Positions 16,401 to 53,000 of a stretch of DNA of 64,000 nt are shown piece by piece (positions within the stretch are counted from its first letter, which is position 1; the number at the start of each line of letters is the position of its first letter). The notes under the pieces were generated by a model. The model worked only from the letters and a program-made list of their open reading frames with translations. It searched no databases and was not told the DNA's origin. A program made the translations under genes and the position numbers. Source of the stretch: Tribonema minus (Eukaryota; Sar; Xanthophyceae; Tribonematales; Tribonemataceae); NCBI GenBank assembly GCA_017506865.1, contig JAFCMP010000532.1:372001-436000 (forward strand), in the 5' to 3' direction.

Positions 16401-19400
16401 TGACCTTGAAGGTGGCCTGCTCGCGGATGATAGGGGTGAGAGGGGGGAGGGGGGGGGGGGGGGGGGGGCGTGTCAGTGGTTGAAGGTTGTGTGCTCGCAC
16501 TGGGTAGGAGGGGGGGCGGGAGGTATGTTATCAGTGCGATAGCGATGCTGTCGTCTGCGGTGATGTGCGAGGCGTGGCGCTTCCACGCAGCGGTGCTCAG
16601 GGCAGGGAGGCTGTCAGCGCCAGGTGCTGTGCAGCGGCTACTGGGTCAAATGACGCAACGGCAGAACGGCTTTTTAACTCTGGCAATCGCTGAGACGCCC
16701 ACGTAGGCTGAGATGAGCGGCGCACCACATCATGCGAGTCTTCATTGCAGGCAGCGCGACGCCGGTGAAGCGCTTGAAGTAGTGACAAAGTGCAGGCTGT
16801 GACGCACCTCTCCTCGCGGCGGCACGCGCGTCACGGGCGGATCCACCACAAACGCGCTGGTGAAGGCCGCCTGCTCCCGGTAGGCGAGCGATAGGGACAC
16901 CAGCGGGGCCTGCGGTGTGCTCCTGAGCCGTGTGGTGAGGGCACAAAATGCAGATCAAGGGTCAGCGCTCAGGTTGCTGGGCGGGGGTAGGTATGCTGTG
17001 TGGCAGCGCGTTTTCAATAAGTGTCAGCGCTCAGGTCTGCTAAATGTCAGCAAATATGCTGTGTGGCTACGCGTTCTCACAACAGGCAGCATGGAGGTGT
17101 GTTGATGCGTGAGTGGCTGCAGCATCGCTTCAATGGCAACAGTGACAACAGCTGGAGGCTTGCCATCAATGGCGTCTGAAATGCAGTGCAAGCGATGCAC
17201 GCCGCGGCAGCTGAATGTCGCTGCTGGTCAAGTGACGCTCAAGCAGGCTTCGCAAGAGGTGGCTGAATCATGCGATTCCCATACAGCCGGCTGCTCAAAT
17301 GTCAGTGATGTGGCTATGGCCAGCATACATGCAATGTGGGCAACGACATTTTAATAACCATGCCTTTTAGAAGTATGTATCTCTAAGCATGTCTTACCTG
17401 CCCCCCCCTCTGCTTGCCGTCCTGCTTCCGGTGCCCCTGCCCCTGCTGCTGCCGCGAGCGCCGCCGGCGGCAGCGGAGTCCGGCGGCAGCGGCGGCGCTG
17501 TCTCTATTTTAACTTCAACAATGCGGCCCTCGTCGCCGGTGTCGCCCGCAGGGTGCAGCGACCAGTGCAGCTCTGCGGTCTACAGAGGCACAAGCAGGTT
17601 TAGAAGGGCGACGTGAAGGTCAGAAGGCTGCGACATGGTGCCTGATGGACGTCTCTCTGCTCCATGGCCGCAGGCCGCAGAGGTGCAGCACAACAGCGTG
17701 CGCCAAACACTATCTGTGGACACGCTTCAGATGGCATATAATATGGACACCCATGCATCGAACGCTAAAAAGATTGCACACATAACTTTTTTGACTACTG
17801 TGGATATGATGGCACTGTTTGACTCATGGTCAATGACTGCAGCAGCGGCGACCACGGTCATTGGTGGAAGGCACTTGCGGATTACCACACCTTTTCACCT
17901 AGAGCTCTACCATCTTGATTTGTTTCCATATATGGCACATGATCTGGGCTGAGCACAGACTCAGCACTGCACACACAGGAGCGCTTCAGGGAAGTCCTGC
18001 GCACACACCTGCCCACAAACTGCGGAACACAAAAGACAGCGGCTCATCGAGAGCTATTTTGAGCGTCAATGGCTAGGGTTGGCACTAATTTGCATAGTCT
18101 GAGTGTCCCTGACATTTTAGCACCCGCTAGCACACTCCGGTCATGTTGCCACAAACGTTCGCTTGTGCACCTGGGCCAGCTGCGGGACCGTTTTGCAGGG
18201 CTCACATGTGGGGTACATTAGTGGGCCTGACAATGCAGCGATTGCGTCAGCCTACCTGAGTGCCGGAATTACGCACGCGCAGCGCGCGCGCGGCGCCGCC
18301 GCCGAACGCCAGGACGTCGCCGAACGAGAGCACGGGCGGCGTGCAGGATGTGTTGAGGCCCAGAGACTCTGCGCGCAGCGACAGCGGGCAGCCGCTGACC
18401 TCCACCTTGACGGGCACCTTAAGTGGCGCGTTCTCGGCTGACACGAAGAAAGGCATGGGGATGAGCGGGGGGCACCCGTCAGCGATGGCTGCGGCATCGT
18501 GGGTTGGCTGGGGAAATGGTCGGCAATGCGTTGAGCGCAGCGTCGACGCAGGACTTGTGCTTCTGGCATGCTCATGTGGGATGACCTGAGGGTGAGGGTT
18601 AAGGTCAGGGTCAGGGTCACGTGATGTTGCCACAATGCAGTACAGCAGCCATATTCTGCTGGCGTGCTCTACAGCCTCCAATCACCCATCCTGAGGGCAT
18701 CATTCATCACCAGAAACGATGTGTTTGTCTAGTTGGAGCGTGACCACTGACTTGCACACATGGAGCTCCACCGCTACGTGGCTGCATTGTCCCTGCGGTC
18801 GGCTGCTCACGCCTCAGCATATACCTCACCGGCATGCAATGCGTTCTCTCATTCCACACCTGCGTTTGGCAAGTCGGTGCGCACGCGGCACACGATGTCG
18901 TCGAAGTAGCGCCCCGGCGTGTCGTTCCAGCACGCGACGCTCAGCTCCGCGACGCCCCACGGCGCCAGCCGCACCGCCGCCGGCGACACCAGCAGTGCCA
19001 TGCCCAGGCCGCGCCGCAGCGCGAACATGGCCTCGCGCTCGCCCAGCTGCGCCGCGAGCCGCGCGCGCCCCTGGCCGCTGCTGAACGCCTCCGCCGCTTC
19101 GTGCGCGGCGTCGAGCAGCCTGTCGCCACCGCTGCCGCTGCTGCCGGCGCCGCCGCTGCCGCCACCGCCGCCGCTGCTGCTGCGGCCGTCGCCGGTGCCG
19201 CCGCTGCAGCGGCTGGCGCCGACGGCAGTGCTCAACATGCTGCCGCTGTTGGTGCCGCTCGCGGCCCTGCTGAGGCTGCCGCTGCTGCCGCTGTTGCCGG
19301 CGGCGGCGGCACCGGCGGCGGCGGCGGCGTCGCGCGCGCCCGGCGGCAGGTACGCCGCGAGTGCCGTGGGGTTGCGCAGCACGCGCTGGAACGCGTCGTA

Positions 19401-22400
19401 CGGCATGGGCGCCGCGACGAGGCGCGCGGGCGCGGCGGGCGCGCTGTCGAACTTGCGCGGCGCGAGCTCCAGGAGCGCGGGAATCGCGCTCAGGTTGCGC
19501 ACCGCGAAGCGCAGCGCGCGCCGCTGCAGCAGCGGCACCGTGCCGAAGCTCAGCGCGAGCGCGCGCGGCGCCTCGGGCGGCGCATCGCCGCCGCCGCGCC
19601 ACTGCGGCGCGTCGGCGGGCTGCAGCGGCGGCAGCGGCGCGGCGCCGTCCGGCAGCGCCTCGAAGGACAGCGCGAGCGGCAGGTTGCGCGCGCGCGCCAC
19701 GAGCCCCAGCGGCATGGCGATGCCGTACACCTTGCACGCGAGGATGTCCTCCACGGCCAAGGCGCCGCTACCGCCGCCGCTGCCGCTGCTGCTGCTGCTG
19801 CCGCCGCCGGGACTGCCGGGCGCAGCAGCGGCGGCGGCGGCGGCAGTGGCGCGCGCCGTGTAGGTGATGGTGATGGCGACGCGGTCGCCGCCGTTCAGCG
19901 TGCCGCTGCAGGGGGAGAAGGTGATGTCGTGGGTGGGCGCGGCGGCGCCGCCGGGGCGCTCGAGCTTGAAGCGCGTGTCGAGGGAGGACAGGTTGAGCAG
20001 CGCTACGGTGCGCTCCACGGGGATGCCGGCGTAGGCGCCGCCGAAGTCGATTGCTGAGGCGCTGAGGCACACCTGGCGGGGTGTGGAGGGTTGGCGGCAG
20101 GGGTAGCGGTAGAATCAGGGTTCAGGATGTGTTAGGGTTGGGTAAGACGAGCTGAGGATCTGGGGACAGCAGGTTAGAGTCATTATGAAGGTAACTTGAT
20201 GGTTCACGACGCAGACGGACAGCAGTGGCAGCTGCAGGCGGCGGATGCATTGGCAACGCCTCAGTGCGTGGGCATGGCGATTGCAGTTCTTGGTCAGTGT
20301 TGAAGCGTAGCCAATTCAGAGGCATGCACACTGTGCACCGGCACTGTGCACAGGCTGAGGCATGCAGCTCTTTGACAGATGACACTTGGCTCCATGGCAC
20401 ATTGAAAAGAAGGACTAATGTCTGGAAGTGGCACTTCAGCCCGCCACTTGCAGCACTGCTCAGTATGTTGAGGCTTACATGCATCAACAGATATCACCAT
20501 GCCTGGCCTCCCGCTCTGTGGACATTGCGTACCTTAGGCTCCTGCACCTCAGCGCGGACCGCCATGTGCCGCGCGCCAAAGTTGACGCCCCTGCCGTCGG
20601 CGCTGCGCAGAGCGCACGTCAGCGTTGCGCGGATGCGTTCCGGCGCCTGTCCCGCCTGTATGGACATGGTCACCGTCACCTGTGCGCAACGGTGCAAGGA
20701 CGCGACGGATCCGTTACATTACTGCGAACACGGTACATGACGACAAGATCGCGAGCCGCACGCCTCGCAGTGACGTGCCTCAAGTGCCGCGCTGTGCGGC
20801 GCGCACGCTACAGTCCGACAAGCGTCACACGCCAGTCCATGTTTCATGCTGTTCAAAGTTGTGCGGCAGATAACAGTGCTCATCCTTGCAACATCACCGC
20901 CCAGCAAACGCTGCAGAGTCTGGCATATCGCAGAGGGCTTCCTTGCCTAGCACCATACAAAAAGCAGGCATACCGGCTGGACTCTAGCCACCTCGCTCCA
21001 GCACCACATCTGTGATGCACATCGCCTGGCCCTGGTACTGAACACACACCCCTGATCTCCCGCTACCCTCATCAACACCGCACTCACCGAGGCGCCCGGC
21101 GCCAGCACGCCGCGCGACGGCTCGCACGCGAGCCGCGCCGCCGCCGCTTCAATGTTGAAGCTGTCCGCCGACGCGATGGACGCCTGGCTGCGCATGCGCC
21201 CCCGCCCCCCCGGCCCCCCGCCGCCGAGCGAGCTCGCGGACGACGGCCGCCGCGCGCTGTCGGCACCCGCGCTGCCGCCGCCGCCGCCGGTGGCTGCAAT
21301 GGCGGCGGCGGCGACGGCGGCGGCGGCGGCGGCGGCGGCGTCCGCGACGGCGGCGGTGGACAGCTCGAACTGCGCGGCGACGGCGCTGCGGTTGGTGAGC
21401 GTCAGGGCGCGCTCCGCGCGCGCGCCGATGGCGACGAGGCCGAGGTCCGTCTCCGCGGCGGCGAGCGCGACGGCGGCGCCGGCACAGCGCACGCGCGCGT
21501 GCAGCAGCAGCGGCGCGCCGCAGCGCGGCGGCAGCGCGCCGGGGGCGTGCAGCGGCACAGCGATGCTGAGCGTGCCTACCGCGAGCGGCGTGACGGTTAC
21601 AGTGAGCTGCAGTGCTCCGCCTGGCGGTATCATGCCCTCCGCGGGCTCTATCACTACCGTCGCCGGCGCGGCGCTGGCGGCAGCAGCGCCGCCATCTGCC
21701 TCCGCTGCTGCTGCTGGTGCTGGAGGCACTTCAGCGGCGATGCTACTGCTGCCGCTGCTGCAGGTGCCTTCGCCCTTGACAAAGCAGGCACGGTCCACGT
21801 CTATACGAAACGGCAGCGGCGCGGCGGTGGAGCGGTTTGTGAGCGTCACGATGCCGCTGCAGGGCACCCCGTACAGCGCAGTCGCAGCCATCACCAGCGT
21901 CGGCGGCTCCAGCGACAGCGCCACTGGGTCCGCCGCGGCGCGCACCTCCAGCGTCACCGCCTCCACGTCGCGCTGCAGCCGCGACAGCAGCAACGCGTCC
22001 GGCGCTGCCGCGGCGGCGAGGCCCGCCGCCGCCGCGACGCAGAAGCGCCGTCCCAGCAGGTCAACCGCCGCCTGCGCGTCCAGCAGCGGCTGCTGCTGCT
22101 CTGCGTTGTCGTCGCCGCTGCTGGCTGCGCCCGCAGCGGACCGCCGCAGCGCACACAGACCCGTGTTGAGCACTGCTGCGGCCTCTGCTGCCGGAGCTTC
22201 GCAGTGGTCACCGCCGTCATAAGCCTCAAGGCGCAGTTGCTGGCTGCTGCCGCTGCTGCTGCCGGCGTTGCTCGCACTTTCGACGCCGTGTGCACTCGCT
22301 GCGGCCGCCAGCAGCGGCTCCAGCGCATCCGCCAGCGCAGCCGCCGTGAACCGCTCCCCCATCGACCGCAGCACGCAGTCCAGCCTGGCATCGCATTCAA

Positions 22401-25400
22401 AGCCGCAGTCGCTGCTGCTGCCGCAGCTCTCACAGGCGCCATCAGCACCCCGCGCGCTGCCGCCGCACGAGCAGGGCAGCAGCGGTGCCGGCGGCAGCGC
22501 GGTCTCCGTCAGCGCCGCCGGCGGCACCGCCACGAGCACCCCCACCAGCTGCGCCGCCGCCGCGCACGCGCGCTGCGGCGAGAAGCTCACCTGAAGCGGC
22601 GCCCACGACAGCGGCGCCACCTCCATCTCTGCGAGAGAGACAGCGTACAGCGCCGCCTCTGCTGCGGCGGCTTCCGCTGCGGCGGCAGCAGTGGCGGCGG
22701 CGGCAGCGGCGGCGGCGGCAGCCGCACGGGCGCCGCGCGCGCTGTTCGCAACGGGCACGCACGCCGCCGCGGGAGTAGCGCGCGGCCTGACGCACCAGCG
22801 CATGCGCAGCGGCAGCCGCGTAGAGTTGTGAACCCACAGCGTGCGGGCGGAGGTGGCGCCAGCGGTGCCCTGCGGCAGGCAGACGCAGGTGGTCTGCTGC
22901 GCGCTGCCGTTCAGCAGGTCGCGCAGCATGGCCGCGGCGTGGTCGGCGCTGCCGCTGGGCGGCGCCAGCATCGCGACGCGCGCGGGCTCGCAGGTCGCGG
23001 TCAGCGTGATGAGCCGCGCCTCGCAGTTGTCCTGCTCGGGGGTTGGGGCGATGGACAGGTCGGTCAGCGGTTACGGCAGTGCGCATTGCACTGTGCTGTG
23101 GAGTTGGGTGTACTGGCAGTTGACAAACTCTAATGCAGGTGGCAGACACAGAGCTTGGTTTGTGATATGGCACCTGGTGCGGTGCTGCAGCACTTGCAAA
23201 GTGCGGCGATGAGCAGCACCAACCTGCAAGGCTGCCGTTGGCAAAAGCTCCACATGTGTCTGTGACATTGTACTCTACCCATCTCAAAGACAAATGGCGG
23301 GTGCAGCCAGATCCACCTGCTATGCCGGCCGCTCTAGCTGCAGCCAAACGCGCCCCCGCCGCTGCATAACCCTGCACACACGACCAGCTCCAGCGCACCT
23401 GCAGCAGCACCAGCCGCGCCGCGTGCTCCCCGAGGCGCCGCGGCGCAAACTCCACCGCGACGCGCCGCTCCCCCCCGCGCGCCGCCAGCGCCAGCTCCGT
23501 GGGCGACACGCGGAACGGTCCCAGCTGCAGCGCGTTCCGCAGGCGCTGCGCGACGCGCGGCGCCGGGTACGCGTCCTCCGGCAGCAGGCGCAGCGTCACG
23601 GCGCCGCCGCCGGCGTTGGTGATGGTCAACGCGTAGCGCAGCGTGAGGCCGAGGAGGCACGCGCCGCAGCGGATGACGCCGTCGGCGGGCAGGCTGAGCG
23701 CGGGGGGGGCGCGGCGCGCGCGGATGGGGACGGACAGCGCACCGCTCTCGGAGAGGACGGCCAGCTGCGGCCGGGGGTTGGGGCGTAGGGGGTAGGGGCG
23801 GGGGGGGGGGGGGGCATGAGCTGAGGCAGGGGGGGTTCATAGCGGCATGGCGGATGCGTCCGTGGTGGTGTTGGTTGTGTGGTCAGAGCATTGAGTACAT
23901 GGTGACATTGATAGAGTAGCCGTGCAGCTGCAGCCGTAGGCAGTCCTTTGCATGGAGTCCGTGCTCAGTGCTCTGCACCGGGAAAAGCACTTGGCACCAC
24001 ACACGGAAAATAAGCAGTTCTGGAAAAGTGTTTATCTGGTTTGTTCTGCAGGCACATCAATAAGGCGTTGAGCTCTCATGAGCCTCTGCAGTCACTACGG
24101 TCAGTATCCATACAGACGCCACAAGGTGACTCACCCTGATCAATTTCTAGAGCCCATTCTGAATACCCTGCTTTCTACTTTGTAGATTGCAGGCACACAG
24201 ACATTGTGTGCTAATTGGTGACCTGCCGCAAGTTTTAAGTGCCTGGCACTTTGCTGCTGGACGTGCAGCGCGCTTTTTGAACATGCACCAACTGCCCATA
24301 TTATCCAGATGTTCTCACCGTCATGCAGCACTACGCGAGTCTGCATGCGATCGTCGCCGAACCCCCCCCCCCTCACCTTGCTGTCATAGCGCCCCAGACT
24401 GTCCGGCGCAAAGTCCACCAGCACGCGCGCCGCCATGCCCGGCGCCAGCAGCCCGCTGCCGCCGCCGCAGCCGCGCGCCGCCACCGCCGCCGCGACGTCC
24501 GCCTCGTCCGCGAGCGTCGACGGGAACGTGACGGCGGCGAGCGAGAAGTGCGCGCCCTGCGGCGGCAGCACGCGCAGGTAGCGCGCCACCGCCGACACGT
24601 TGCGCAGCAGCAGCACCGCCGTGTACGCGCCGCCGACGTCGTAGTCTGCGAACTCCACGTGCGGCGGGTCTGCCAGGATGTAGCCGCCGCCGCCGCCGCC
24701 GCCGCCGCCGATACCGCCGCCGCTGCTGCTGCTGCTGCCACCGCTCTTGTTCGCAGCGCCGCCCGGCGCAGTGCCGTGCGTGAGGTCCGCAGCCGCGCTG
24801 CCGCTGCTGCCTGGTGCGGCAGCTGGACTGTTGCTGCCACCGCCGCCGCTGCCGACGGTGATCACCTTCTCATGCCAGCGCGAGCGCGGGTCGTGGCGCG
24901 GGTTGCGCAGGAACTGCAGCTTGCGCTCTATGCGCAACAGCGCCGCAGTGTCCGCGTCGCGCTGCGCGCCGCTGGGCAGCGCGCGGCGCGCCTTCCGCTG
25001 CTGCTGCAGCGTGCCATCGCCGCTGCCGCCGCCACTGCCGCCGCTGCCGCTGTGCCGCGTAGGACTCTGCCGCAGGGTGTTGGTGCCGTCCATCGGCGCG
25101 TGATCAGGGTCCGCAGTGGTGGCCAACGCATGAGGCTGTTCACCGTCTGTTACAGTAGTAGCAGCAGCATCGGGATGCCGTCTCCGACTGCGGTGCTGCA
25201 GCTGGCCGCGGGGACCGTAGCTGGCCGGCAGCGCCAGTGCCTGTCTATTGGCGGTGACTGCCGTGGTGTTCAGGTATGCTGGTGTTTCGGGTTTGAGATT
25301 GAACCCCCTGTCGCGCGTCTCTCCCCCGCTCGTGTCCCACGCGAGGTTGCCGCTTTCCCTCAGCTTCTGTTTGACATGCGTCTGGACCAGCTGGTGTGCC

Positions 25401-25870
25401 TCAACCATCGAGTTGGAAAAGTCCCCATAGCTGTCAAGTGCATCAGCGTCATATCGCAGCTGGCTTTCGCCTAGCGGCAGGTGTGCCACGACCAGGCCCT
25501 GTCTTTTGTAGTCATCGCGAACCTGTTGATCTGCCTCGCTCGCCTGATGTTGCTGCTTTTGTAGGTAGTGTTTCAGTTGTCGCGCCTGCTCCCTCTTTAG
25601 TTCCGCATCATGATCTATGTCGGCAATTGTAGAACTGAGTGCAGTGATGGACGCATGCGTAGTCGTGTGGACTTCGGATTCGGTGTCGGCGGCGACATCG
25701 CTGGCTTGCCGGCCTCCAACACCTATGCTGCTAGCTGCAAATACATCTTTGAATGCGGTGCCCAAAATATGGGATATAGATCCTACAGCCGCCACAGCAG
25801 CATCGTCTGCTTCATCATGTATCGCCACGTCCAGCAGGTCCTGAGCAGGTAGCTCCGTAGCTGTCGTCAT
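13436..25870 (-). CDS. DLEC1: DLEC1 / CFAP81 orthologue, ciliary ASH-domain protein
   Basis: Eleven exons join in phase: 24377-25870, 23399-23764, 21088-23031, 20533-20679, 18860-20072, 18256-18437, 17398-17579, 16808-16922, 16194-16416, 15460-15632 and 13436-14650, giving about 2417 residues (human DLEC1 is about 1755). Landmarks follow human DLEC1 in order: KLQFLRNPRHDP then VEFADYDVGGAYT in exon 1; the RRAPPALSLP...CGACLLG segment in exon 2; DNCEARLITLT opening exon 3; GRYFDDIVCRV closing exon 5; and a C-terminus ending LEGRGTYEEG. The protein is a chain of Ig-like ASH/MSP beta-sandwich repeats. In Chlamydomonas the homologue FAP81 belongs to the axonemal central apparatus, so a motility role is expected. 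The extra length is mostly Ala, Gly and Ser runs from GC-rich trinucleotide expansion between conserved blocks. The start ATG fits a 205-bp shared promoter with BABAM1. Confidence 0.93.
16449..16468. repeat. G20 tract acting as a C-rich polypyrimidine stretch upstream of a DLEC1 acceptor
   Basis: On the minus-strand transcript this is C20, ending about 32 nt before the acceptor of the exon that starts at 16416. A further CCCCCCTCTCACCCC follows, so the tract probably serves as the polypyrimidine tract. Confidence 0.75.
17740..17940 (+). repeat. Dispersed repeat family R2, copy in a DLEC1 intron
   Basis: About 200 bp matches 51962-52180 in reverse orientation, and its end also matches 60768-60810. 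The shared core includes gcggcgaccacggtcattgg and cacctagagctctacc. Both long copies can be read as a similar peptide containing SMTAAAATTVIGGRHLR (here) and PITAAAATTVIGGRRLR (there), so it may descend from a mobile-element coding region. It lies inside the 17580-18255 intron. Confidence 0.65.
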
Positions 25871-29408: not shown

Positions 29409-29850
29409 GATGGGCTGCAGCAGCAGCAAGCCCTGCAAGAGAGCCCATCGCACGGCCTTGACCATTGTCATTGTCCACATCATGTTTACCTCCAGCAGCA
29501 ACTTTTCGCTGTCACAGTGATACACAGTGCACTACAGCTGCAGCAGAAGCTGCGACCGTATGCGGCATGAACCGACATCTTCAACAGCGACGCTCCGAAA
29601 TAGGGATCTGGCAAGGAGCTGGCAGCTGATATTGATTTGCTTTTGGTTTCTGCGAGAAAGCCCATCTGGTGTCGCACAGCCACTCTTGCATGCAGTGGAT
29701 GTGGAGCCACCAAAAAACAACTCACTTCAACTCTGACAGAAACTTCCGCACCGTCGAGATACTTTTTTAAAAACAACTCTTAGCACAAAGATAGCTTGAA
29801 AGAAAGATAGCTTGCACATATATCGCTATCGCTTAGCTCAGAGCGAGATA
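29409..29850 (+). repeat. Split or duplicated 5' end of NLR-like copy A
   Basis: The ATG context of copy B (gcaacATGGGCAGCAGCAAG, 47411-47430) aligns here twice. At 29409-29435 an ATG opens MGCSSSKPC but the frame stops after about 36 codons. At 29848-29870 the reading IGCSGSKPATT continues into the full gene but starts with ATA. Roughly 420 bp of extra sequence separates the two, with weak internal similarity to the upstream block. Confidence 0.55.
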
Positions 29851-32800
29851 GGCTGCAGTGGCAGCAAGCCCGCTACCACCGGCGGTGGCACCAAAAGCGT
29901 TTCCCTGCACCACCAAATAGCTCTGGCCGCGAGTGTGCAGGATCCTAGCACAGCTGGCCCAGGCGATATCGACGCAACCGAGGATGGGAGAGGGCTTCAG
30001 ATGGCCCAAGAGGTGGCCACGGTTGCTGTGAAAGCGGGTGTAACGTCTGGCATCGAGGTCGTCAAAGCAGCTTTGGAAGCCATGCTCCCCAAAGTAACTA
30101 CGGCAGGAGAGAAGCTGCCCTGGGTGGGCGCCATCTTCTCCTTCTGCAACCTCATGTTTGAAATGGTCCAGAGCAATGCAGAGGCCAGGGAGAAGTGCGC
30201 CGAAGTGCTGCAGGAGCTGGTACAAGAATTTCAGGTACTGTACAGAAACTCGATACATGTCACCAGTGAATTGCATTTTTAGATCATCATCACCTCACGA
30301 GTAGAGTGCATCTTGAATGTTGAGTGCCAGCCATTCCCCAGTCATATCATACGACGAGTCTGTGTCGGACGTCCAGCTCTGTGCTCATGTGCCATGGCCT
30401 TCGCTCTACGTGTGTGCAGGTTGTAATGACAGTGGTGATGGACTGGCTCGCAAAGACCCACATCGCTCAGCACATCAGGGAGCTGGTGGTCAGCTACAAT
30501 GAGGAGACGGCAAGCGTGGAGAGGCGCGTGAAGGAAATCAAGGACATGAGGAGTGCAAACCGATTTCTCACTGCCGCGGAGATTGTGGAGGAGCTGAAAC
30601 TCAAGCAAGCCCGCTGTGAACGCATGAAGACCACACTGATCACTCTGAAGGTCTTCAATTCCTCTGGGGAAAAAATCAACAGGTGCCACAGTGTGTTGCG
30701 TTGTGGAGACTTGCGTTGTGCATGTTGAAGTGTTGTGTACATACGTCAAATAGTCACGATGGCATCAATTTGACAGTGGTAAACTATGTTCTACCTGAAC
30801 CAGTCGCACCAAAATACGACTTGACAATGATTATCGTCATGCCTGTCATTTGCGCTGACTCCCCTGAAGTCGCTTCAGTGATTATTGCACCACTGTCGTG
30901 CTATGTGCTTGCAGCGCCAAACCAAGAACTCCACCATTCTTTCTTCAACGCTTGGGGGATGCGGACAAGCTTGTGGGAAGAGATGAGCTTGTCAACGAGG
31001 TCAAGCGCAAGCTGACCAGCAGTCGTGCTGTGGTCCTGTACGGCGGCCCCGGCGAGGGCAAAAGCACAGTGATCATGGAGGTGGCAGAGCAGCTGGTGGC
31101 TGCAGGGGGCTGCTCTGGCGGCACATACAAGGTGGACATGGCAGGTAATGCTATGAAATGGCAAGTGCGCCTTACCTACGCACGCGCGCGTACAAATTTG
31201 TACAATTTGCTGACAGGACCAACTCCTCTCATTGCACGTTCTGATGCACAGGATTGATGGTTCAAGATGCGAACGGCCAAGATACGGGTGCCGCCGTAAG
31301 AGCGCACATCGGTGGTGCATCGTACAGAGTGCTCATAGAGTGCGAGGTAAGCAACCAGCCGCGGTGATTCGCCTGTGCCTCAGTACTTTGAGTCCCCTAA
31401 CCGCATTGCCTAGTTGTGTTGCATGCGCAGTTGACTTGAATATGTGGTGTGTGCTGACCCCTGGGCATTGTGCTGCCTCTCTGCGTCAGGGAGGCATCGA
31501 TCAGACCGACGCTGCAACAACAACAGCTCAACAGCAATGGGACGCGGTATCTTTGTGGCTGCGTTGCCTCCAGCTTGCCAGCAAGCAGGTGCTGTTGGCA
31601 GTGGAGAATGCTGAGTACGCTTCCAGCGTCAGAGCATCGCAGGTGAGCACTTGTGTTGCGTGAAATACAAACACCTACTTAGAAATGCGGGAAGTCCATA
31701 CATGTACTTTGAAGTCTACTATGGCTCATGTATGTATCAATGATTCAATGTTGTTGTGGAATATATAACGTATTGACAGCGCAAATGTGCAGGAATTATA
31801 CGCCGCCATCTGCGTGTCCTGTCTGCAGCTCGTCCTTCTGCCCTCTGGCATGTTTATTACGAGTCCCCATTCCAAGGTATTTCACGAAGCAAGCGAGCAA
31901 CTGATATATGGGGAGGCATGCTATAAAACAAAGATTAATCTGTTCAGGCTTATCAGAACCATGACAAGTCGCCACCAAGCAGTGCGGCAGCTGCAAATTC
32001 GGAGGAAACGCGCATGTATACTTTTCGCCATCGAGCTGGGTCAGCTGTCACAGCGAGCTTGTAATAGTCACGAAATGATTCATGGACGGATATGTTCTGT
32101 GTTTCCAATTTCTCTATATTCAGGTAGTGTTCACAATAATCCCGCATTGGCATTGTGCTGTGCAACATCAGTTGCCAGCTGCAGCACTACCATACCCCTG
32201 CCATGCAGTCAACATCTGAAGTTCTTGTGGGTGAGTGCATGCATTGAGGCCATGCTGCTGTGCTGATGGCTGCCTGCCATTTTGTGATGTTGCTGTAAAC
32301 ATTGCCGTGCAACACGCATCTGTGCTTGTCGAGCCATGCTGCAGGCATGCTAATATGTTGTGCTCTACGCCATGCATGATGCTGATGCCATGCTCAGCGG
32401 TACTACATAGTATGTGGCATGTACAGTGACTGCCCTAATAATCGTTGGCATGTACGCATTTAATATTAATGTCAGTAGAGCACAAAAATATATATGATAG
32501 ACGAATGTGCGCCGTACAGATTTGGCATTGTAGAAATACACATTTTGTTGGCGCCCTGTGAACACCCGGCAGGATACTTGCCAATGGGAGCAGGTCAAGC
32601 CAACGTCATTTTTGCCATGTGATGCAGTTTTACGACCCTTGGCCCTTCCTGTGTGCATCACTGATTTCTCTTGCAGGAGCTTGCCGATGTTCTTGAAGAG
32701 ATTCGGCAAAACACCTTCACTCTACTGCTAGTGGCTTCCCGAGAGACCCCTGCTCTCTACCGCAAGTTTGGAACGGTGCAAGTGAAGCCCCTTACTCCGC

Positions 32801-35800
32801 AGTATGCGACACAGATGATTCGCAGCAAATGCACGATGACGGACGATCAAGCGCGTACACTCTCGGACAACTGCGGTCGCAACGCACTGCTGATGGAAGT
32901 GGTGTCAAGCTTCCTGGACACACATCCTGACGAGCTGCTGGTAAGGCTCTGCCTCATCTCTTACAGTCAAGTTTTCACATTGTACCTCATAAACATCACT
33001 GATGTCAACGACAGCTTTAGTATAAAATTATTAGGGCATGGCATATGCCGATCTATGTATTGTACATCCTGTTGTGAACATCAATGCAACGTTATACTTC
33101 AAATTTTCAGCAGCAATTATTTATTTGTCGGCTCAATCGAACACATCTTGTCTTGCCACTCTTGGCGCGTGTCTTGGGTGTGTTCTGTGGCACCAATCCT
33201 CTGCCACGCACACATTTTCTTCTATGACTTGGCATGCACAAGAACATTACTGATCATTAAAACATAGCGAAGCCTGACTCAGAGTCCTCAAGGGGCATGG
33301 ACAGCGCTACCCCTGAAAAGACAGGAGACTCATATGCTGAAGCAACGAGGCTGGAGACGCATGCCAGCCGCTGATGCCAATGCTCGCGCCAGTTCCTACG
33401 AGTTGACAGGCTGTTCTCCATGCTGAACGACCACCGAGCAGACGTCTAGAAGCGTTACCTGGTCAGCAGCAGACTTCACGTCTCAGATAAACAAGGCTGA
33501 TCAACATCAAAAACCTGATTTTGCTTTCACCATGGGCGAGTGCTTGCAAATTAATTGATTCAACTCCACATTGAGCTTTTCTAGACTCAAGTTCCAATGT
33601 AAGAGCGCTCGACATGGAGGGGGCACAGAATGAGACAGTCGGTCCGACATTCGGCAAAGTTTTTGGTTTGCTGGATGCATATGTAGTACCAAAATCAATA
33701 CAAAACCTGTCGCAGCCCAATGCTTCTCCGGGCTCCCTTTTTTTTCTTGACAACCCCCTGCTCACAGCTTCACTATCGATTATGTGCGGCAGGTTTCTGT
33801 GCTGTTCATGCCAAGCTCATAAGTTTAATTTGGGTACGCACACAAGCATGGCAGCCGCAGCGGTAGTGCCACATGTATACCAGCTTTACGTGAAGTTCAT
33901 GCACTTTTACATAGTACTTCGAAGTATACTATTACAGTAGCATGCCGTTGTTGTTGTATTTGAGCCCTAATATTTGGAGATCAGCTTAGAGTGTAACCTA
34001 TCACTTGGTGAGCAATTTACAATATGAGAGCAGTGCAAGCGTATTTAGCACGATTTTGTAGCCAGGACCGACCTGCCAAAAATATTGCAATTATCGCGTG
34101 ATTGAATTAGATCCTGGGAGACACGTGCTCAGCAAGCCCGAGAAAAAAAAATGCTGCTTATCAGTAGCGCAAAGTCATTGCAAGAAAACATGTTGTCTAG
34201 TAGTTCAGTGTAGCAGTGTGCCTACAGTACATGATGACATGTGATTCAATTACATGCAATATGAGTGCCGTGTCATGACATGACATAGTGCAGTATCTTG
34301 ATTGTTGAAGTTATTCGAACCTTTGCCTACCTGACAACACGTTGTGCCTTCAAGGTGAAGAGAATTGCAGGTGATGATTAGTGTACCTTGACTGTTGCGA
34401 CAGGTGGCATCACAACTTTGCAACTGAACTACTGCCGCATGGACCAAATGTGTTTGCATATGTTGCGGATGCGCATCTGACATGCTACCGAAGATCGTCT
34501 CCTTCATGCATGCAGATGAACATATTGATCAATTGAAGCCTGCCTTCAACGCTTAGTTACAGACAGTGTTTGTGCATGTTATCATCCACAACAGACATAA
34601 GTTACAACAGTCATACACAATGTATGCTGCATGAAAGTCGCACTATACACTGCACGCAACTCTGATGACATGATGGTATTCAAAATTGGAGGATAGGCCA
34701 TGTTGTGTATGGTGATACAGCTGTAATGTTTATGGAGCTCGTTCCACATGTCATTGAGTCGTAAGTGTGCAGCATTATGATGCTTGAATTTGTGAGTTTT
34801 GTTCACTTCCGCTATGATATCTTTGAGGCTGAGGGAGTGCCGGACCAAATGGCATCTGAAAGGATATACCTCTTCTCATTCAAGGGACCGTCGCACGCCC
34901 ATAGCCCGCAGAGCTACACTACTGTCGCCCCACAGGTTAGGATGCAACAGCACCTGCCAGTGCAATTATAGAGAACAGGATCCAGCATAAACCACTTTAA
35001 CCAAGTTTGTTTGCACTCGGCTAGCGTTCGTTGCTGCTTGCGAACTTTATGCCTCAAGGATGTGTGGTGAAGACACTGGTTTCGGAATTGGTAGACTCTT
35101 GAAACTTCAATTTGTAGGTAGACTTCATGCTTCAAGCAACAATTTTCAATTCATGTTACTGAGACATGTCAAGTCAAGAGCCTTCAAACAAAATGTTTCT
35201 TGCTGAATGAAGAAAATTCCAGGCATGACTTCTTTTTTTTTTTAATATTTATTACTACTATAACATCTATACTTAGTCTACAATTTAGCAGAAGTCCCCT
35301 CATAGCTACTTGTGTAACTTGTTTTTTGCAACGCAAAGTCAAATCTCTAAGACACAACTTCACGCCTTGGAACCTGTTCTTTGCAACACGAAGCTGAGTT
35401 CCACAGACAAATTCATGATATTCTAACTTATTCGGTGCTTGAATTATTCTTAATGGTTCTCGTTCAAGGCACAGAACAGCATTTGAAAACTGCCTAGTTG
35501 ATGACGATACCGAGCTAGCTGCTAGAGATAGCGCCACCGATACCTCATACACGGAGTTGAACTCAATCACCATGAAAACTATTGCTGACTCACGTCGGAC
35601 GCAACTGAAAACGAAACCACAGCTCACCTGGCTGTGCAGTCCTGATGTGGTAGAAGAGTCAGCCTGCTTTGAAGGCCTCTTGCAGGCGCCAGCATTTGGA
35701 CGTATGAACTCACTCAGTGACAGACTGGCAGGTTCAATGATGCATCCAGAACATGCGCAATGTGGTGTACCCATCATAGTGTTGAACTTCATTCGTAAAT

Positions 35801-38101
35801 ATTATTCGTGACCATGCTCTTATTCAAACATCCCGCCCAAGGCGCACAAAAGTCCAGATGATCATATGATGCCTACAGCAACTTGAACTTGAAGTTGTGA
35901 TCCCCAAAAAATGACTCGATGTTCAATTGCCTCTCGCACACTTGTTTGAATGCTTGTTCAAAACAGGATGTCGTGTCAGCGGCGAAGCAGCAGCAGCCTT
36001 TGCCGGTTGGGGCAGGCCTCGAAAATCAAGTCGACATGCTGCGTAAGTGGCTGATGGTTTCGGTGAAGGATGACACCAGGCAGCTGCTAGCACGGCTGTC
36101 GGTGTTTGCCAGTGGCTTCAGCACGGACGGGGCAGCGGCGGTCATGACTCATGCTGGCGACAGACCACTAGAGCAACTGCTGCAGGAGCTACGCAACATG
36201 TCCATCATACGCCGTGTGCAGGCCCTACAGTCACCATTCCCGGCGGTGCCCACTACAGGATGCACGCCATCTCCCTCTTAGCGGCGGCAAAGCTATTGCC
36301 ACCGGCAGAGCTGCAGCCAGTACAAGACGCCTTTGCCCTGCACATTTTGGGACTGGCCAAGGAGCTGCACAGGCTGCGGCCTGAAACTGGAGCGGCTTCG
36401 CTCCTTCCCGCAATGGAAGTGTTGACCGCGGAGCTACCAAACATCAGGAGGTTGCTGACCTTCATGGACAATGGAGCTTTATGGCGAGAGAAAAGCTGGG
36501 CAGTCAAGTTCACAGACCTTGGCGATGAGTTGATGATGCGGAGTGTGCTGAGGGAAGCAGAAAAATTGTTTTGGCGCGCGTTGGCCGTTAGGGAGGAGGC
36601 GCTTGGCGTTGAGCATCCAGACACGGGGACATCTCTCAACAACATTGCCTCGCTGCTACATGATCAGGGCAAGTTCGTGGAGGCAGAGCCGCTGTATTTG
36701 CGCGCACTGGCCATCAGGGAGAAGGTTCTTGGCGCTGAGCATCCAACCACAGCGACGTCGCTCAACAACCTCGCCTCGCTCCTGAAAGCTCAGGGCAAAT
36801 TGGCGGAAGCAGACTCTGAGCCGCTGTACCGGCGCGCGCTAACCGTCAGCAAGCAGGTGCTTGGCACCGAGCATCCAGCCACGGCGTCATCGCTCAACAA
36901 CCTTGCTTTGCTGCTGCAAGCTCAGGGCAAGTTGGCAGAAGCAGAGCCGCTGTACCAGCGTGCGCTGGCCATTAGGGAGGAGGTGCTTGGCGCAAAGCAT
37001 CCAGACACGGCGCAGTCGCTCAACAACCTCGCCTTGCTGCTGCAAGCTGAGGGCAAGTTGGCAGAGGCGGAGTTGCTGAACCGTCGCGCGCTGGCCATCT
37101 GGGAGGAGGCGCTTGGTACAGAGCATTCAGATACGGCAACGTCACTCAACAATCTCGCCTTGCTGCTGAAGGCTCAGGGCAAGTCGGTGGAAGCGGAGCC
37201 GCTGTACCTTCGCGCGCTGGCCATCAGGGAGGAGGCGCTTGGCGCAGAGCATCCAGATACGGCCCAGTCGCTGAACAACCTCGCTTTGCAGCTGCAAGCT
37301 CAGGGCAGGTTGGTGGAGGCAGAGCCGCTGTACCGGCGCGCGCTGGCCATCTGGGAGGAGGCGCTTGGTGCAGAACATCCAGACACGGCTCAGTTGCTCA
37401 TCAACCTTGCCTTGCTACTGAAAGCTCAGGGCAAATTGGCAGAGGCGGCGCCACTGTGCCGGCGCGCGCTGGCGATCAACGAGCTGAGGCTGGGCGATGA
37501 GCATCCATACACGGCGACAACGCTCAACCACCTTGGCTTGCTGCTGAAAGCTCAGGGCAAATTGGCAGAAGCAGAGCCGCTGTACCGGCGCGCGCTGACC
37601 ATCAGGGAGAAGGCGCTTGGCGGCAAGCATTCAAACACGGCCCTGTCGCTCAACAACCTTGCCTTGCTGCTGCAAGCTCAGGGCAAGTTGGCAGAGGCGG
37701 AGCCGCTGTGCCGGCGCGCGCTGGCCATCAGGGAGGAGGCGCTCGGCGCTGAGCATTCAACCACGGTCCAGTCGTTCAACAACCTTGCTGTGCTGCTGCA
37801 AGCTCAGGGCAAGCTGGCAGATGCGGAACCACTGTACCGGCGTGTGCTGGTCAACAGGGAGCAGGTGCTTGGCGCCGAGCATCCAGACACTTCTACGTCG
37901 CTGAACAACCTTGCGTCGCTGCTGCAAGCTCAGGGCAAGCTGGCAAAAGCCGAGCCGCTATACCGGCGTGCGTTGGTCATCAGAGAGGTGGCGCTCGGCG
38001 CCGAGCATCCAGACACGACGAGGTCGCGCGACGGACTTGCCGGGTTGCTGCGATCGAAGAAAAAATGGTGGAGGCGCAGCCGCTGGACGGTGCGCTGGTG
38101 A
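29848..38101 (+). CDS. NLR-like receptor, copy A: HeLo/MLKL-like helical domain, NB-ARC, winged helix, 12 KLC-type TPRs
   Basis: Exons: 29848-30234, 30420-30682, 30915-31144, 31252-31346, 31490-31642, 31793-31876, 32677-32940 and 35967-38101, about 1200 residues. The N-terminal helical region has LPWVGAIFSF followed by AREKCAEVLQEL, like the VPxVGPI...C..L core of MLKL/HeLo-type four-helix domains that execute cell death. NB-ARC follows: Walker A YGGPGEGKST (near residue 260), a Walker B-like VLLAVENAEYA, the sensor-like LLLVASRE, and CGRNALLMEV in place of GLPL. LLARLSVFASGFSTDG is the usual winged-helix segment. Twelve 42-residue TPRs follow. Such proteins are ATP-driven switches that sense ligands through the repeats; an immune or allorecognition role is inference. 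Two faults: the start aligned with copy B is ATA, and a 1-nt deletion near 36223 shifts the frame before the TPRs. Either the copy is a young pseudogene or these are assembly errors. Confidence 0.75.
35184..35792 (-). other. Unassigned 202-codon ORF inside the large NLR-like intron
   Basis: Open for 609 bp in an AT-richer stretch of the 3-kb intron between NB-ARC exon 7 and exon 8. The reading has several Cys and Ser and no recognised motif. A plus-strand frame is also open over 35557-35811, and the copy B equivalent near 53750-53850 is interrupted. It is probably not a gene. Confidence 0.15.
36540..38045 (+). repeat. 126-bp coding tandem array, 12 TPR units (copy A)
   Basis: Each unit encodes 42 residues of the pattern LNNLALLLQAQGKLAEAEPL followed by YRRALAIREEALGAEHPDTA. 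Twelve LGxxH signatures can be counted, all in one exon and one frame. The third unit carries two extra residues (LAEADSEPLY). After the last unit a frame change at the gaagaaaaaatgg run turns a recognisable thirteenth half-repeat (MVEAQPLDGALVIRQEPLG) out of frame. Confidence 0.9.
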
Positions 38102-46479: not shown

Positions 46480-49400
46480 TGTGTGATGGTGGATGGCATG
46501 ACAAGTGCCATGGTATATGAGGCAACAGGGAACGCTTGCTGACGCCATGCTCTGCTCGACAAGCAGCAGCGCTTAATGGCTGGTCACCTGACTCGGCGAC
46601 GCCTCGTAGCGCTGGAGCTGCTCCAGATGCGGTCAGCGCATTGCATGCGCTGAAGGGCAGTGGCAGGGTCTGTGAGTGACAGCAGTATCATGCACTGTTG
46701 TGAGAAGTAGCTTGCGGGCAACTTGAACATGACTCATGAGCCAGCAGATGACGTACACAGATGCTTCTCGCAGTGCCAGGCGCACGACGCTGACATCCCT
46801 TCAGCTGACAACAGGGGCAACACGCGCTCACCACCACCACGCGACAGGGAACTCAGCAACTACCAGTGACGGGCGGCACCGTAGCAGCGTCAGCGTTTGG
46901 TACCAAACCGCAGCTGCTGCAGCTTGCTGGCTTCAGGCATAAAGTGCGATCGGATGTGATGTTCAGCATCGTCGTACTCAACAATTGTTAACTTGGCTGC
47001 AGAGTACGGGTGCAAACATATGGGCGTGAATGCTACATCATGCACTCTCAGCAGCACATACTACTTTGATGCATGCTTTTTTCTGTGCATCTGCGCCATT
47101 GACATTGACCGTTGTTTCCGCACAAACTTCAATAGTCACAAACTTCAAAAGTGACGCTCCTGTTAGGATTGCACGTGGAATTCTGTTCTGCAGGGATACG
47201 CATCTGATACCGTGCGGCACCCTCGACAATGCCGCAAAAAACATTCCAAGCCAGTGTTGCTTTGCGAGTTCCATATTCACAGTGAACTTCACACTTGAAG
47301 TTGTTCACCCGCCGGAAAGTGCCAGAAACTTCCACCACAGCAACTCATCGCTGAGATTGGCTTGTCTGCAGTGAGTGAGTGAGGCAGCTGACCATCATTT
47401 GATTTTTTGAGCAACATGGGCAGCAGCAAGCCCGCTGCCACCGGCAGCGGCACCAAAGGCGCGCCCTTAGACAATCAGCAAGTGGCTGCCACAGCTGGTC
47501 GTGGATCAGGCGTGGACGCATCCGCATTCGAGGATGGGCTCCAGGTGGGCCAGGAGGCGGCAAAGGCTGCCGCAACCGTGGGCGTAAAAGCCGGCGTGGA
47601 CATGGCCAAAACAGCGCTAGAAGCTATTCTTCCCAGGGTGACTACGGCAGGAGAAAAGCTGCCCTGGGTGGGCGCCATTTTCAGCTGTGCAGCCTGATGA
47701 TTGAGATGGTCGACAGCAACGCAGCGGCAACCGCAAAGTGCGCTGAAGTACTAAGGGAGCTGGTCCGAGACTTCAAGGTACGACATGTAAAATCAAGTAT
47801 AAAATCAAGTATTGACTAACGGCGCTCTCATGGACCAACCAGGTTTAAACCGTCCACAGCACCTACACAGCATATAAATATTGACCAACGGCACGCTCTC
47901 ATGGTTTAAACCGTCCGCAGTACCAGCCAGAGAGTTGCGAATTGGTACCTGAGCATCATCATCTTGTGGCAGTGGATCATGAGTCTGTGACCTCAAGCTC
48001 TCAACATTATCTTGCCACATAATCTGTACGCAGATCGTAATGGCGGCGGTCATTGAGTGGGCGGCAAAGCCCTTCATCAGCGATGACATCAAGGACTTCG
48101 TGGCCAGCCTCAACCAGGAGTCGGCCGATGTGAGAAGGCGCGTGCAAGAGATCGAGGACATGCGCAGGACGAGAAAATTTCTCACTGCCGCAGACATTCT
48201 AGTTGAGCTGAAAGATACGCAGGACCGCTGTGAACACACGAAGACTACTCTTATCGCTTTGGGTGTCTTCATCGGCCCAGGGAATGACCTCGACAGGTAC
48301 GTTATTCGATGTCACCTGTTGCACTTAGCATCACATGTGAAGCGTCCATGATGGCATCATACTACAAGTAGGTGGCTACACATTCCTCATGTGCCCCAGC
48401 TGCAGCATTAGTGCACAGATGTCCAGCTCTGAACTCACATCTCAATGCCCGTACCACTTCAAAGAAGTTCAGTAGACTACAACGATACTCAATGTACCAC
48501 CATTGTCGTATTGCCCGTTTGCAGCACTGGACCAAAAACTCTGCCATTCTTCCTTCAACGCGTGGTGGATGCGGACAAGCTGGTGGGAAGAGATGATCTT
48601 GTCAAAGAGATAAAGGACAAGCTGGCCAGCAATCGTGCTGTGGTGCTGTATGGCGGGCCCGGCGAGGGCAAGAGTACAGTGGCCATGGAGGTGGCAGAGC
48701 AGCTGGTGGCTGAAGGGGGCTGCTCTGCTGGCACATTCAAAGTGGACATGACAGGTAATACTGCACAATGGCAATTGCGCCTTACGCACGCGTGCCTACA
48801 GATTTGTACATTCGCTGATAGGACCAATATCTCGCTCTGCATGTTCTGATGCACAGCACTGATTGTTCAAGATGCGAGTGGCGAAGATATAAAAGCTGAC
48901 GTGAGAGCGCACATTGGTGGTGCATTGTACAGGGTGCTCGTAGACTGCGAGGTAAGCGGCCAGCCGTAGTAGTTCGCCTGCGCCTCGGTGTTATGAGTCC
49001 ACTGCCCGCATCACCTAGTTCTATTGCATACGCACTTGACTCAAATGTGTGGTGTGTGCTGACTCCTGGGCATTGTGCCGCCTCTCCTGCCACAGGGAGG
49101 CATCACTCAGACCAACGCTGCAACAACAACAGCTCAACAGCAATGGGACGCGGTATCTGTTTGGCTGCGTTGCCTCAAGCCTTCCAGCAAGCAGGTGCTG
49201 CTGGCAGTTGAGAATGCTGAGTACGCCACGACAGTCAACGCAGCAGAGGTGAGCACTGGTGCTGTGTTGTTGATGACCACATAGAAATGCAGAAGTCTGT
49301 ACGTGTACTTTGAATTCTATCATCGTGTACTTTGAGGTATATGCGTCAGTTCAAAATGTCACAACACTTTGCGTACTTTGTGGCGCACATCTGCGGGCGC

Positions 49401-50069
49401 TGTATGCCGCCATCTGTGTTTCCTGCCTGCACCTCGTCTTGCTGCCGTCTTGCACATGCGTTGCGAGGCCCCATTCCGAAGTGATTGATGAAGTGAGCTA
49501 GCAACTGGTCTGTGTGGGCGGCAGGCTGTACACGATGATTCTTTTTGTGCGGACTTTGGCTTGCCACAATCATGCCTAGCTGCCCAGAAAGCAGCAGGCG
49601 CGCACTGCCAGATGCAAATGCGGAGGGAGAATGCGCGGACAGTCTTCGCCTTCGTTCAGCCGTTACTACAGGTTGAGCTTGCAACTCAAAACAAACACAG
49701 AACAACCTCATGAGCCAAGGAAAGTTGGGTGCCATGTCAATACTTTCACTCTAACGAAGTTTCCAATATTATTACATAATAATAAGATACGTTTCACAAC
49801 AACACCACATTGGCTCCGTGCTGTATAAATCTGATTCAGTTGCATGCTGCAACACTATCTCTGCTACACAGCTGTACAGTACACCCCCTTAGTCCTTGTG
49901 GATGAGTTCATGCAGCGGTGTCTCATGGTCACGCTGCTGTGTGCTGATGACTGCCTGTCATGCTGTAATGATGTGTTTACATTGCCGCAAAACATACATC
50001 TGTGCATGTCTCAGCCATACTGCAGGCATGCTGATATATTGTGCTGCTACAATACTGGAGTGATGCCGT

Positions 50070-50170
50070 GCTCAGCGAGATATATGCAGGCTACACTGCC
50101 CCCATACGTTGGTGCTCAGCGGTATATGCTCAGCGGTATATATGCAGGCTACACTGCCCCTATACAATGG
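50070..50170. repeat. Short tandem duplication around tatatgcaggctacactgcc
   Basis: The unit atatatgcaggctacactgc is present twice about 70 bp apart with an intervening repeated gctcagcggtata. It lies in an intron of NLR-like copy B and is absent at the equivalent place in copy A. Confidence 0.7.
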
Positions 50171-50923
50171 CATGTACGGAATTAAGTCACTGTGCAACCA
50201 TATACGTTAATATGCACGATATACAGATGCGCGTCGTACAGGTTTGGCATTGTAGAAGTATTTGTTGTGTCACCGCCGTATGAGCATCCGACGGACCGGG
50301 GATGCTTGGGAGCAAGTCAAGTCAACGCCATGATGCATTGCCAGTTGATGCGGTCTTGCAGATCTCAACCCTTTCTTTGTGCACCATTGATTTTCCTTGC
50401 AGGGGCTTGCTGATGTTCTTGAGGAGATTCGGCAATTCACCTCCACTCTGCTGCTCGTGGCTTCACGAGAAAACAGCGCTCTCTACCGCAAGTTTGAAAC
50501 GGTGCAAGCGAAGCCCCTCACTCCACAGTATGCTGCACAGATGATTCGCAGCAAGTGCACAATGACGGACGACCAAGCCCGTACCCTCTTGGATCACTGT
50601 GGTTGCAACTCACTGATGATGGAGGTGGTGTCAAGTTTCCTGGGCACACATCCTGACAAGCTGTCGGTAAGCCTGTGCCTCATCTCTTGGGGCTGAGTAT
50701 CCCAATTCACACCTAGTACAATAGTATCATCATTGCTGATGTCAATGGCATCTTTGTCACTGACCAATTTGAAAGTCGTCAGTGTTGCGCATAACGTACA
50801 GTGGAAGCAGTGACTAGGGGGATGAGCACAGGTCCATGAAATATCTCTGGAGACCCCGCTTCCCTGAATGTGTTCAGTAGCTCAAACGGTCGGGATTGAC
50901 GAGCCCTTTCAAATGCACCTGAT

Positions 50924-51245
50924 TTCAGGTCCCCAGGCCCCAAACGAGAGTTACAGTGGATTTGGTGACTCAATCTGTGCTTGAAGTAGCTAGGGTTTGG
51001 CCTAGGGTTTGGCCTTGACTCGTGGGGAATCAGGTCCCCAGGCCCCAAACTTTGAGAGTTACAGTGGATTTGGTGACTCAATCTGTGCTTGAAGTAGCTA
51101 GGGTTTGGCCTAGGGTTTGGCCTTGACTCGTGGGGAATCAGGTCCCCAGGCCCCAAACTGAGAGTTACAGTGGATTTGGTGACTCAATCTGTGCTTGAAG
51201 TAGCTAGGGCTTGGCCTAGGATTTGGCCTTGACTCGTGGGGGCTC
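50924..51245. repeat. About 108-bp tandem repeat, three units
   Basis: Units start at about 50924, 51029 and 51139 with tcaggtccccaggcccc, and contain gagagttacagtggatttgg and gtagctagggtttggcc. Units one to three are nearly identical, apart from 2-4-bp length changes after ccccaaac; the third diverges at its end. It lies in the large intron of NLR-like copy B; copy A has no equivalent. Confidence 0.9.
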
Positions 51246-51961
51246 AAGGATGTGGCCAATCAAGGCCTGACACGTGGAGCTTTCCAGCGGTGCGATCAGA
51301 TTTTCCTGAAATCCGGGGTCGCCGGCGTTTGTTTCAGGCAAGCGTGCTGCTGAGAGAGCTCTAAATGGGAAGTCAGCCTGCAGCCTTGCGGCCGCTGTTG
51401 TGGCACCCAGCCCATGTAGCCCTGTCGAGCACCTCGTTAGAACGCAGAGAACACGTAGTACTCGCAGCCTCGCCTGCAACGCGTGTGTGTGTGCTGCTGC
51501 TGATACAGCAGCAGCAGTAGCTGTGGATTATCGATGCTGCTTGCCCTGCTACACACATACGACCAGCAACATGGCAGTGACAGGTGCACATGTGCAGGAA
51601 GACCTTGCTGAGAAGCGGGCTGATCACATCGGCCGGTTTCAAGGCCATTTTCGGGATTTGGGCGACTATAGCCAATTGTAGTCAGCGTCAGTCGACAAAT
51701 AGCCGGCTATAACCGATTTTCTGTGATTATTTGTGACTAAAGTCGGCTAAAGTCGGACATGCTATCAACTATCCTACATCTCAGTGAGGGGATTCCAGTC
51801 CACACAATATTAGAAGCCACCGACCTCATTGTCAGAAGTGATCCAATATCGACCCCCATCCCCCTAGTCACTGCTTCCAATGACTCAGTGTTACCGTCAC
51901 ATCTCTACTCAAAAAATTGGCAGGGCACCTATATAAGGTGATACTTGGCCCCGAAACTATT

Positions 51962-52180
51962 TAAAGCCTGAATGAAAAACGAATCAAAAGATCGCAGAGC
52001 TCTAGGTGACAAGGGATGGTTAGCCGCAAACGCCTTCCACCAATAACCGTGGTCGCCGCTGCTGCAGTAATTGGCCACGAGTTAAACAGTGCCACCATAA
52101 CCACAGTAGGCAACAAGACTTCTGTGTGCAAGGTTTTTAGCGTTCGAGGCATGGGTGTTCAGAATGGAAAGGTCACACGT
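51962..52180 (-). repeat. Dispersed repeat family R2, copy in NLR-like copy B
   Basis: Reverse-complement match to 17740-17940 (ccaccaataaccgtggtcgc is the mirror of gcgaccacggtcattggtgg) and direct match of gaaaaacgaatcaaaagatc to 60769-60790. It is an insertion in the large intron of copy B. Confidence 0.7.
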
Positions 52181-52949: not shown

Positions 52950-53000
52950 TGTACTTTTTATTAATTCTCGCTCAGGGCGCGAAAAAGCTGTTGTGTACTT
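52950..53000 (-). repeat. Dispersed repeat family R3, copy 1
   Basis: On the minus strand it reads gctttttcgcgccctgagcg followed by agaattaataa, matching 62758-62800 and 63961-63992. It may be part of a retrotransposon 3' end. Confidence 0.6.

Follow-up and report, generated by a model that had tools for sequence, protein, structure and literature searches.

The locus raises the question of whether an alga encodes an NLR-type receptor that carries a cell-death domain at its N-terminus. The first-pass annotation had proposed such a protein for this stretch of DNA, which comes from Tribonema minus, with a HeLo/MLKL-like domain coupled to an NB-ARC switch and a sensor made of tetratricopeptide repeats (TPRs). 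We examined the gene within a window of 64,000 nucleotides (C529:372001-436000), and searched the 158 Mb of the genome (554 contigs) for its relatives.

Gene structure, copies and lesions

The flagged gene spans positions 29848-38101 of the window on the + strand and is composed of seven exons (Table 1). The encoded protein has a leader and linker in front of a helical domain, followed by a P-loop NTPase, a winged-helix region and about 12 TPRs. This is the tripartite layout of NLRs, with an N-terminal module, a STAND switch and a repeat sensor. AG/GT signals were found at every internal exon boundary, and after splicing the reading frame stays open between 29848 and 36223. The parts originally described in this interval could all be located: the helical N-terminus with LPWVGAIF and a C..VL..L helix (KCAEVLQEL) falls in exon 1, and the winged helix and TPRs lie in exon 7, on the + strand. 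The TPR array (36573-38027) consists of 11.5 units of 126 bp according to TRF, carries 12 repeat marks and matches Pfam TPR_12 at 6.3e-166.

Table 1. Positions of the exons of the flagged gene (copy 1), its frame-breaking deletion and the second copy in the window
Feature	Position	Strand	Description
Exon 1	29848-30234	+	ATA (ATG in siblings); leader (GCSGSK) and linker; an extra helix, then the opening N-domain helices with LPWVGAIF and KCAEVLQEL; closed by a phase-0 intron
Exon 2	30420-30682	+	Remaining N-domain (NRFLTAAEIVEEL); phase 0 to phase 2; two long helices predicted
Exon 3	30915-31144	+	Start of STAND NTPase; P-loop GGPGEGKST
Exon 4	31252-31346	+	NTPase
Exon 5	31490-31642	+	NTPase; Walker-B-like LLAVENAE
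Exon 6	32677-32940	+	NTPase; sensor LLLVASRE, then GRNALLME
Exon 7	35967-38101	+	Winged-helix region (YRMHAISLL) and TPR array; TGA stop at 38099-38101
One-base deletion, copy 1	36223/36224	+	Relative to copies 2, 3 and 4; winged helix and TPRs are thrown into different frames
Copy 2	47416-55680 (end approximate)	+	One base missing in exon 1; more frame breaks in the TPR exon

Searching the genome with the N-domain retrieved four loci at E < 1e-5, two of them in the window, a third farther along C529 and inverted (copy 3) and the fourth on C32 (copy 4); weak matches on C9 and C379 (E 0.36 and 0.52) represent divergent relatives. The first seven of eight tested exon pieces match in the same order at the three other loci (the TPR piece was left out of the tabulated comparison). 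For the first 700 codons, comparison with copy 4 gives a dN/dS of 0.32-0.39, and comparison among copies 1-3 gives 0.36-0.44, with dS of 0.44-0.50. The common order of the pieces and the dN/dS of 0.32-0.44 between copies argue that the gene is more than a product of chance. Copy 4 has seven exons with an uninterrupted frame of 1591 codons, starts with MGCCISS and shows no lesion. The number of TPR marks is 12 in copy 1 and 20 in copy 4, in 42-aa units within one exon; it is possible that the number of sensor repeats varies between copies.

The flagged copy itself looks like a pseudogene, since it has ATA at 29848-29850, where copies 2, 3 and 4 have ATG, and lacks a base in exon 7 (Table 1); judged from these lesions, it is probably not functional. 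Starting from the in-frame ATG at 30001, it could still make the helical domain minus its leader. In copy 3, exon 1 contains two additional bases, a TAG stands at copy 4 codon 471, and the frame is interrupted within the TPR exon. One may ask whether the defects seen in the three C529 copies are assembly errors that conceal a functional gene, as most of them are small indels, the copies have the dN/dS given above and copy 1 keeps its downstream ATG. We regard this as quite improbable: neither the ATA of copy 1 nor the TAG of copy 3 is an indel, at least two lesions occur in every one of the three copies and none in the 1591 codons of copy 4, and the last exon of several relatives is still open for 865-1127 aa. 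The genes of this family appear to have been long under purifying selection, with the three C529 copies now decaying.

The NTPase, its siblings and the NB-ARC genes

The switch had been described as NB-ARC. Its P-loop, Walker B, SR/TR sensor, NPLM and MHS/MHA motifs are indeed colinear in NB-ARC order, with a Walker B of LLAFENAE in copy 4 and LLVFDDAE in L053, but the intact copy 4 scores only 15.3 bits against the Pfam NB-ARC cut-off of 23.5. The nSTAND and AAA_16 models also stay under their cut-offs on this region. A profile of the NTPase aligns its motifs colinearly with those of the genome's own NB-ARC domains, with 4 of 100 shuffles scoring equally well. Given the low Pfam score and these shuffles, the safe name on sequence grounds is "STAND NTPase, NB-ARC-like", where the likeness is one of motif order only.

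The NTPase region of copy 4 has 66 matching stretches (E<=0.01) on C529, C32, C379, C9, C223, C279, C207 and C63, and N-termini of such siblings were read from locus sequences. Seven genes carry the helical N-domain on the TPR body (three on C529, one on C32, two on C379 and one at C9:158 kb), and seven others have a TIR or TIR-like N-terminus (five in a cluster on C9, one each on C207 and C63). Four of the latter seven were scanned with Pfam TIR: the genes at C9 144 kb, C9 125 kb and C207 pass the cut-off, and the C63 gene gave no match in that scan. The remaining three were assigned by visual inspection, which in two cases covered the C-terminal part of the domain alone. On C223 the N-terminus is an alpha/beta-hydrolase with GHSLGG (DUF676, 20.5 bits; cut-off 20.3), and the C279 gene, outside its N-terminus, looks like a near-duplicate of the C223 gene. 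Since a TIR or hydrolase domain occupies the same place in siblings, the helical domain sits at the position of an effector domain, as the original proposal implied. In a tree of 14 NTPase exons (~70 aa, too short for counting swaps), six helical members cluster with a support of 0.79. The C9 cluster (117-160 kb) holds six NTPase-TPR genes (L041, L051, L056, L057, L060, L019), five with TIR or TIR-like N-termini and one with the helical domain. Viral contigs and prokaryote genomes, searched by pattern plus tblastn, yielded no relative.

A search of the genome for NB-ARC retrieved nine places, none in the flagged gene's family, of which eight were examined (L001-L008). Four of them (L001-L004, on C33, C179, C90 and C514) are plant-like NB-ARC genes with an acylation-like MGA start, here outside the green lineage. 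All four combine an MGA[C/F].. start with a helical N-domain, which we denote A6, and contain WVHDVLKA. The NB-ARC of L003 reaches 75.1 bits in Pfam; LRR marks number seven in each of L001-L003 (LRR_14 at 2.5e-21 in L001), with just one seen in the L004 stretch. The top Pfam match of A6 is MLKL_N in three of the four genes (E 3.5e-5, 0.0092 and 0.016), under the cut-off, and L004 has no Pfam MLKL_N match. Searching the genome with the N-domain of L002 retrieved L001-L004 only. As for the other four NB-ARC genes, the N-terminus is hydrolase-like in L007 and TIR-like in L008, under the Pfam cut-off in either case, L006 has a different N-terminus, and L005 gave no Pfam match at E<=0.01 in the scanned stretch.

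The helical N-domain and MLKL_N

The direct comparisons of the flagged family's N-domain with MLKL_N failed. Pfam MLKL_N did not match it, PDB sequences gave no notable match, and in hhalign against MLKL_N 32 of 200 shuffles were as good when four sequences were used, and 126 of 400 when seven were used. With no direct profile or Pfam match, we do not file the domain under Pfam MLKL_N. Pfam matches to Rx_N and RPW8 were also absent from the family. An RFLTA stretch common with human MLKL was considered and rejected, being not significant alone (10 of 500 shuffles equal).

A link nevertheless emerges through A6 as an intermediate family. We compared A6 with an MLKL_N-type profile built from the human sequence and six from this genome, five of which pass the Pfam cut-off, while the sixth is a neighbouring open frame picked by eye. 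This gave 93.8% (E 1.8e-7), with none of 300 shuffles as good; against human MLKL alone the value was 37.8%, again with 0/300 shuffles. On its other side, A6 matched the seven sequences of the flagged family at 90.2% (E 1.5e-6, 0/300 shuffles), colinearly across 124 columns. The family's profile against MLKL_N and A6 merged yielded 91.1% (0/200 shuffles), mostly due to A6. Most of the signal is held by the N-terminal halves (89.9%, 0/200 shuffles), with 8.7% for the C-terminal halves alone (0/200); the C379/C9 sub-family alone gave 3.1% against A6, with 2 of 200 shuffles as good. Single A6 members scored 24.7-31.5 against the flagged family's profile and 26.4-40.9 against MLKL_N, and single members of the flagged family scored 16.2-35.3 against A6, the lowest (L019, 16.2) being near control level. 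Control scores were <= 15.3 in 18 comparisons (three profiles with six unrelated proteins), and 12.3 and 16.6 for reversed A6.

The gene structures agree with this. A phase-0 intron lies 11-14 residues past an aligned Cys in all 11 genes of both bodies, its positions being offset by about five columns when A6 and the N-domain are aligned with gaps, and a phase-2 intron follows the helical domain in each of the eight genes checked (copies 1-4 and L001-L004). These shared intron phases provide independent support for the kinship of the two helical N-domains. Modelled alone from 30001, exon 1 forms helices at 2-11, 17-31, 35-56 and 60-76 (mean pLDDT 63); exon 2, also modelled alone, forms helices at 2-46 and 49-82 (mean pLDDT 78). 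One study (PMC9815663) describes an extra helix ahead of the bundle in BaMLKL and Goodbye-like domains, and the predicted helices would fit, without proving, a bundle with an extra front helix as in these basidiomycete MLKL-like NLR domains. No unrelated family gave a better match, and both exons, modelled singly, are predicted as helices only. The HeLo/MLKL assignment is therefore plausible by way of A6 (90.2% and 93.8%), although it fails when put to MLKL_N directly, and the helical N-domain probably belongs to the wider MLKL/HeLo superfamily.

MLKL_N domains above the Pfam cut-off were found at six places in the genome, two of them with equal scores. In the set L025-L030 (C7, C159, C379, C533, C103, C71), examined by eye, MLKL_N is followed by kinase-like frames in five genes and by armadillo-like repeats in one (L030). 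Pfam verified the kinase of L027 (Pkinase, 1.6e-43); by eye, with this one of five confirmed by Pfam, these genes look like MLKL-type kinases of a red-plastid alga.

Eleven genes carry a helical domain on the two bodies, nine of which have an ATG at the aligned place. The consensus for myristoylation and palmitoylation is an MG start, a Ser or Cys at residue 6 and a Cys by residue 5. Eight of the nine ATG genes follow this pattern (MGCCIS, MGCSNS, MGCSGS, MGCKES, MGAFCS, MGACCC, MGACCS and MGACRS), which we take to be a myristoylation and palmitoylation signal by that consensus. As exceptions, copy 2 (MGSSKP) is without the motif, copy 1 has it behind the ATA, and no start was seen for L019. 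Judging by these leaders, the proteins of the family would be N-myristoylated and S-palmitoylated.

A candidate receptor family and its surroundings

A nucleotide switch and a repeat sensor stand behind the helical N-domain, and the same exon set recurs at four loci, which supports the idea of an algal NLR-like family. We think it rather likely that this locus holds one decaying member of a small NLR-like receptor family, of a membrane-tethered cell-death or defence type, in a red-plastid alga that is probably a stramenopile. The intact form of the family is the 1591-aa protein of C32, which should be myristoylated and palmitoylated at its MGC start. Behind this start come a linker, a helical domain resembling the MLKL/HeLo superfamily, the STAND NTPase and its winged helix, and finally the long array of TPRs. 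The lipid anchors would hold the receptor at the membrane; binding of a ligand to the TPRs would release the NTPase, nucleotide exchange would lead to oligomerisation, and the clustered helical domains might then disturb or open the membrane, causing ion flux, defence signalling or cell death. Oligomerisation, membrane action and an immune or allorecognition role are what we infer from this architecture.

The helical N-domain might instead serve for oligomerisation or as an adaptor, recruiting partners at the membrane without attacking it. The domain does not match the executioner domain of MLKL directly, and in this genome an MLKL_N-like domain also precedes armadillo-like repeats; against this, the domain is linked indirectly to MLKL_N via A6 and stands where TIR and hydrolase modules stand, so that we consider an adaptor function rather unlikely. 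The role of the family might also be non-immune, in development, stress or organelle surveillance, as may be the case for many TPR-STAND proteins. The small number of helical members (seven found) would agree with such a role, which we nonetheless judge unlikely, as the N-termini placed on one NTPase-TPR body are of effector type, and tandem copies and decay are seen as in NLR families.

The cell-death or defence receptor that we favour resembles several known systems. According to three reports (PMC9815663, PMC10952240, PMC10197012), fungal NLRs carry MLKL/HeLo/Goodbye, TIR and hydrolase N-domains. In the basidiomycete BaMLKL, HeLo-like and Goodbye-like NLRs (PMC9815663), an MLKL-superfamily N-domain likewise precedes a nucleotide switch, often with TPRs; the algal family differs in its host, its acylation-like leader, its lack of a direct MLKL profile match and an NTPase under the NB-ARC cut-off. 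The system of PMC11467418 shares a helical effector on a nucleotide switch and, in some members, an acylation-like start, whereas the flagged family has TPRs for LRRs and lies outside the green lineage. Plant TIR-NB-ARC-TPR proteins (TNP; PMC9806590) also have an NTPase followed by TPRs, with TIR in front as in the sibling genes here, unlike the helical N-domain of the flagged gene. The brown-algal NB-TPR genes (PMC11378527) are similar in coming from a stramenopile group and in their tandem expansion, but the TPRs of the flagged family lie in one long exon and not in shuffled single-repeat exons. Human MLKL and the genome's MLKL_N-kinases share distant N-domain similarity with the flagged family through A6, with a kinase in place of the NTPase-TPR body and no direct match. 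Among the literature matches listed, none reported, for red-plastid algae, NB-TPR or NB-LRR proteins that begin with an MLKL-like domain.

More tentatively, and at slightly under an even chance, these genes may together represent the NLR arsenal of a non-green alga, in which an LRR body and a TPR body have three N-terminal modules in common: TIR, alpha/beta-hydrolase and an acylated MLKL/HeLo-like bundle. The bundle would be a two-exon cassette with conserved intron phases and anchoring built in, accompanied by MLKL_N-kinases, and the arrangement would follow a plant-like and fungus-like logic of plug-in effectors, possibly achieved by exon shuffling. If the receptor reading favoured above is right, there is a photosynthetic lineage, distinct from plants, animals and fungi, that joins an MLKL-like executioner to a nucleotide switch, and the NB-ARC-LRR genes of the same alga use a related cassette. 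The finding would then matter for the question whether the CC/RPW8 effectors of plants, the HeLo effectors of fungi and the MLKL effectors of animals have an older common origin or were recruited repeatedly, and C32 offers an intact gene for testing membrane anchoring and cell death.

Elsewhere in the window, large open frames on the - strand at 18852-25870 contain DLEC1/CFAP65/HYDIN-type Ig-like domains (Ig_Dlec1_1 3.7e-12, Ig_DLEC1_6th 2.0e-11), pointing to a flagellar-type gene adjoining the receptor locus. Two long open frames on the + strand at 60967-63808 have no Pfam match. By eye, 62843-63808 recurs in the 3' part of L029 and the end of 60967-62685 in L064 at ~719-1120; since stretches recur beside other loci, these frames are probably a mobile or repeated element. 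The genome has 92 LHC matches, and comparison of LHC proteins with PDB pointed to no clear group. A green alga was considered as host and rejected, since the 18S sequence appears to be of stramenopile type and the rbcL presumably red-type. The two short rbcL fragments lie within nuclear contigs at C334:714 kb (L070) and C112:517 kb (L071), representing plastid DNA inserted in the nucleus.
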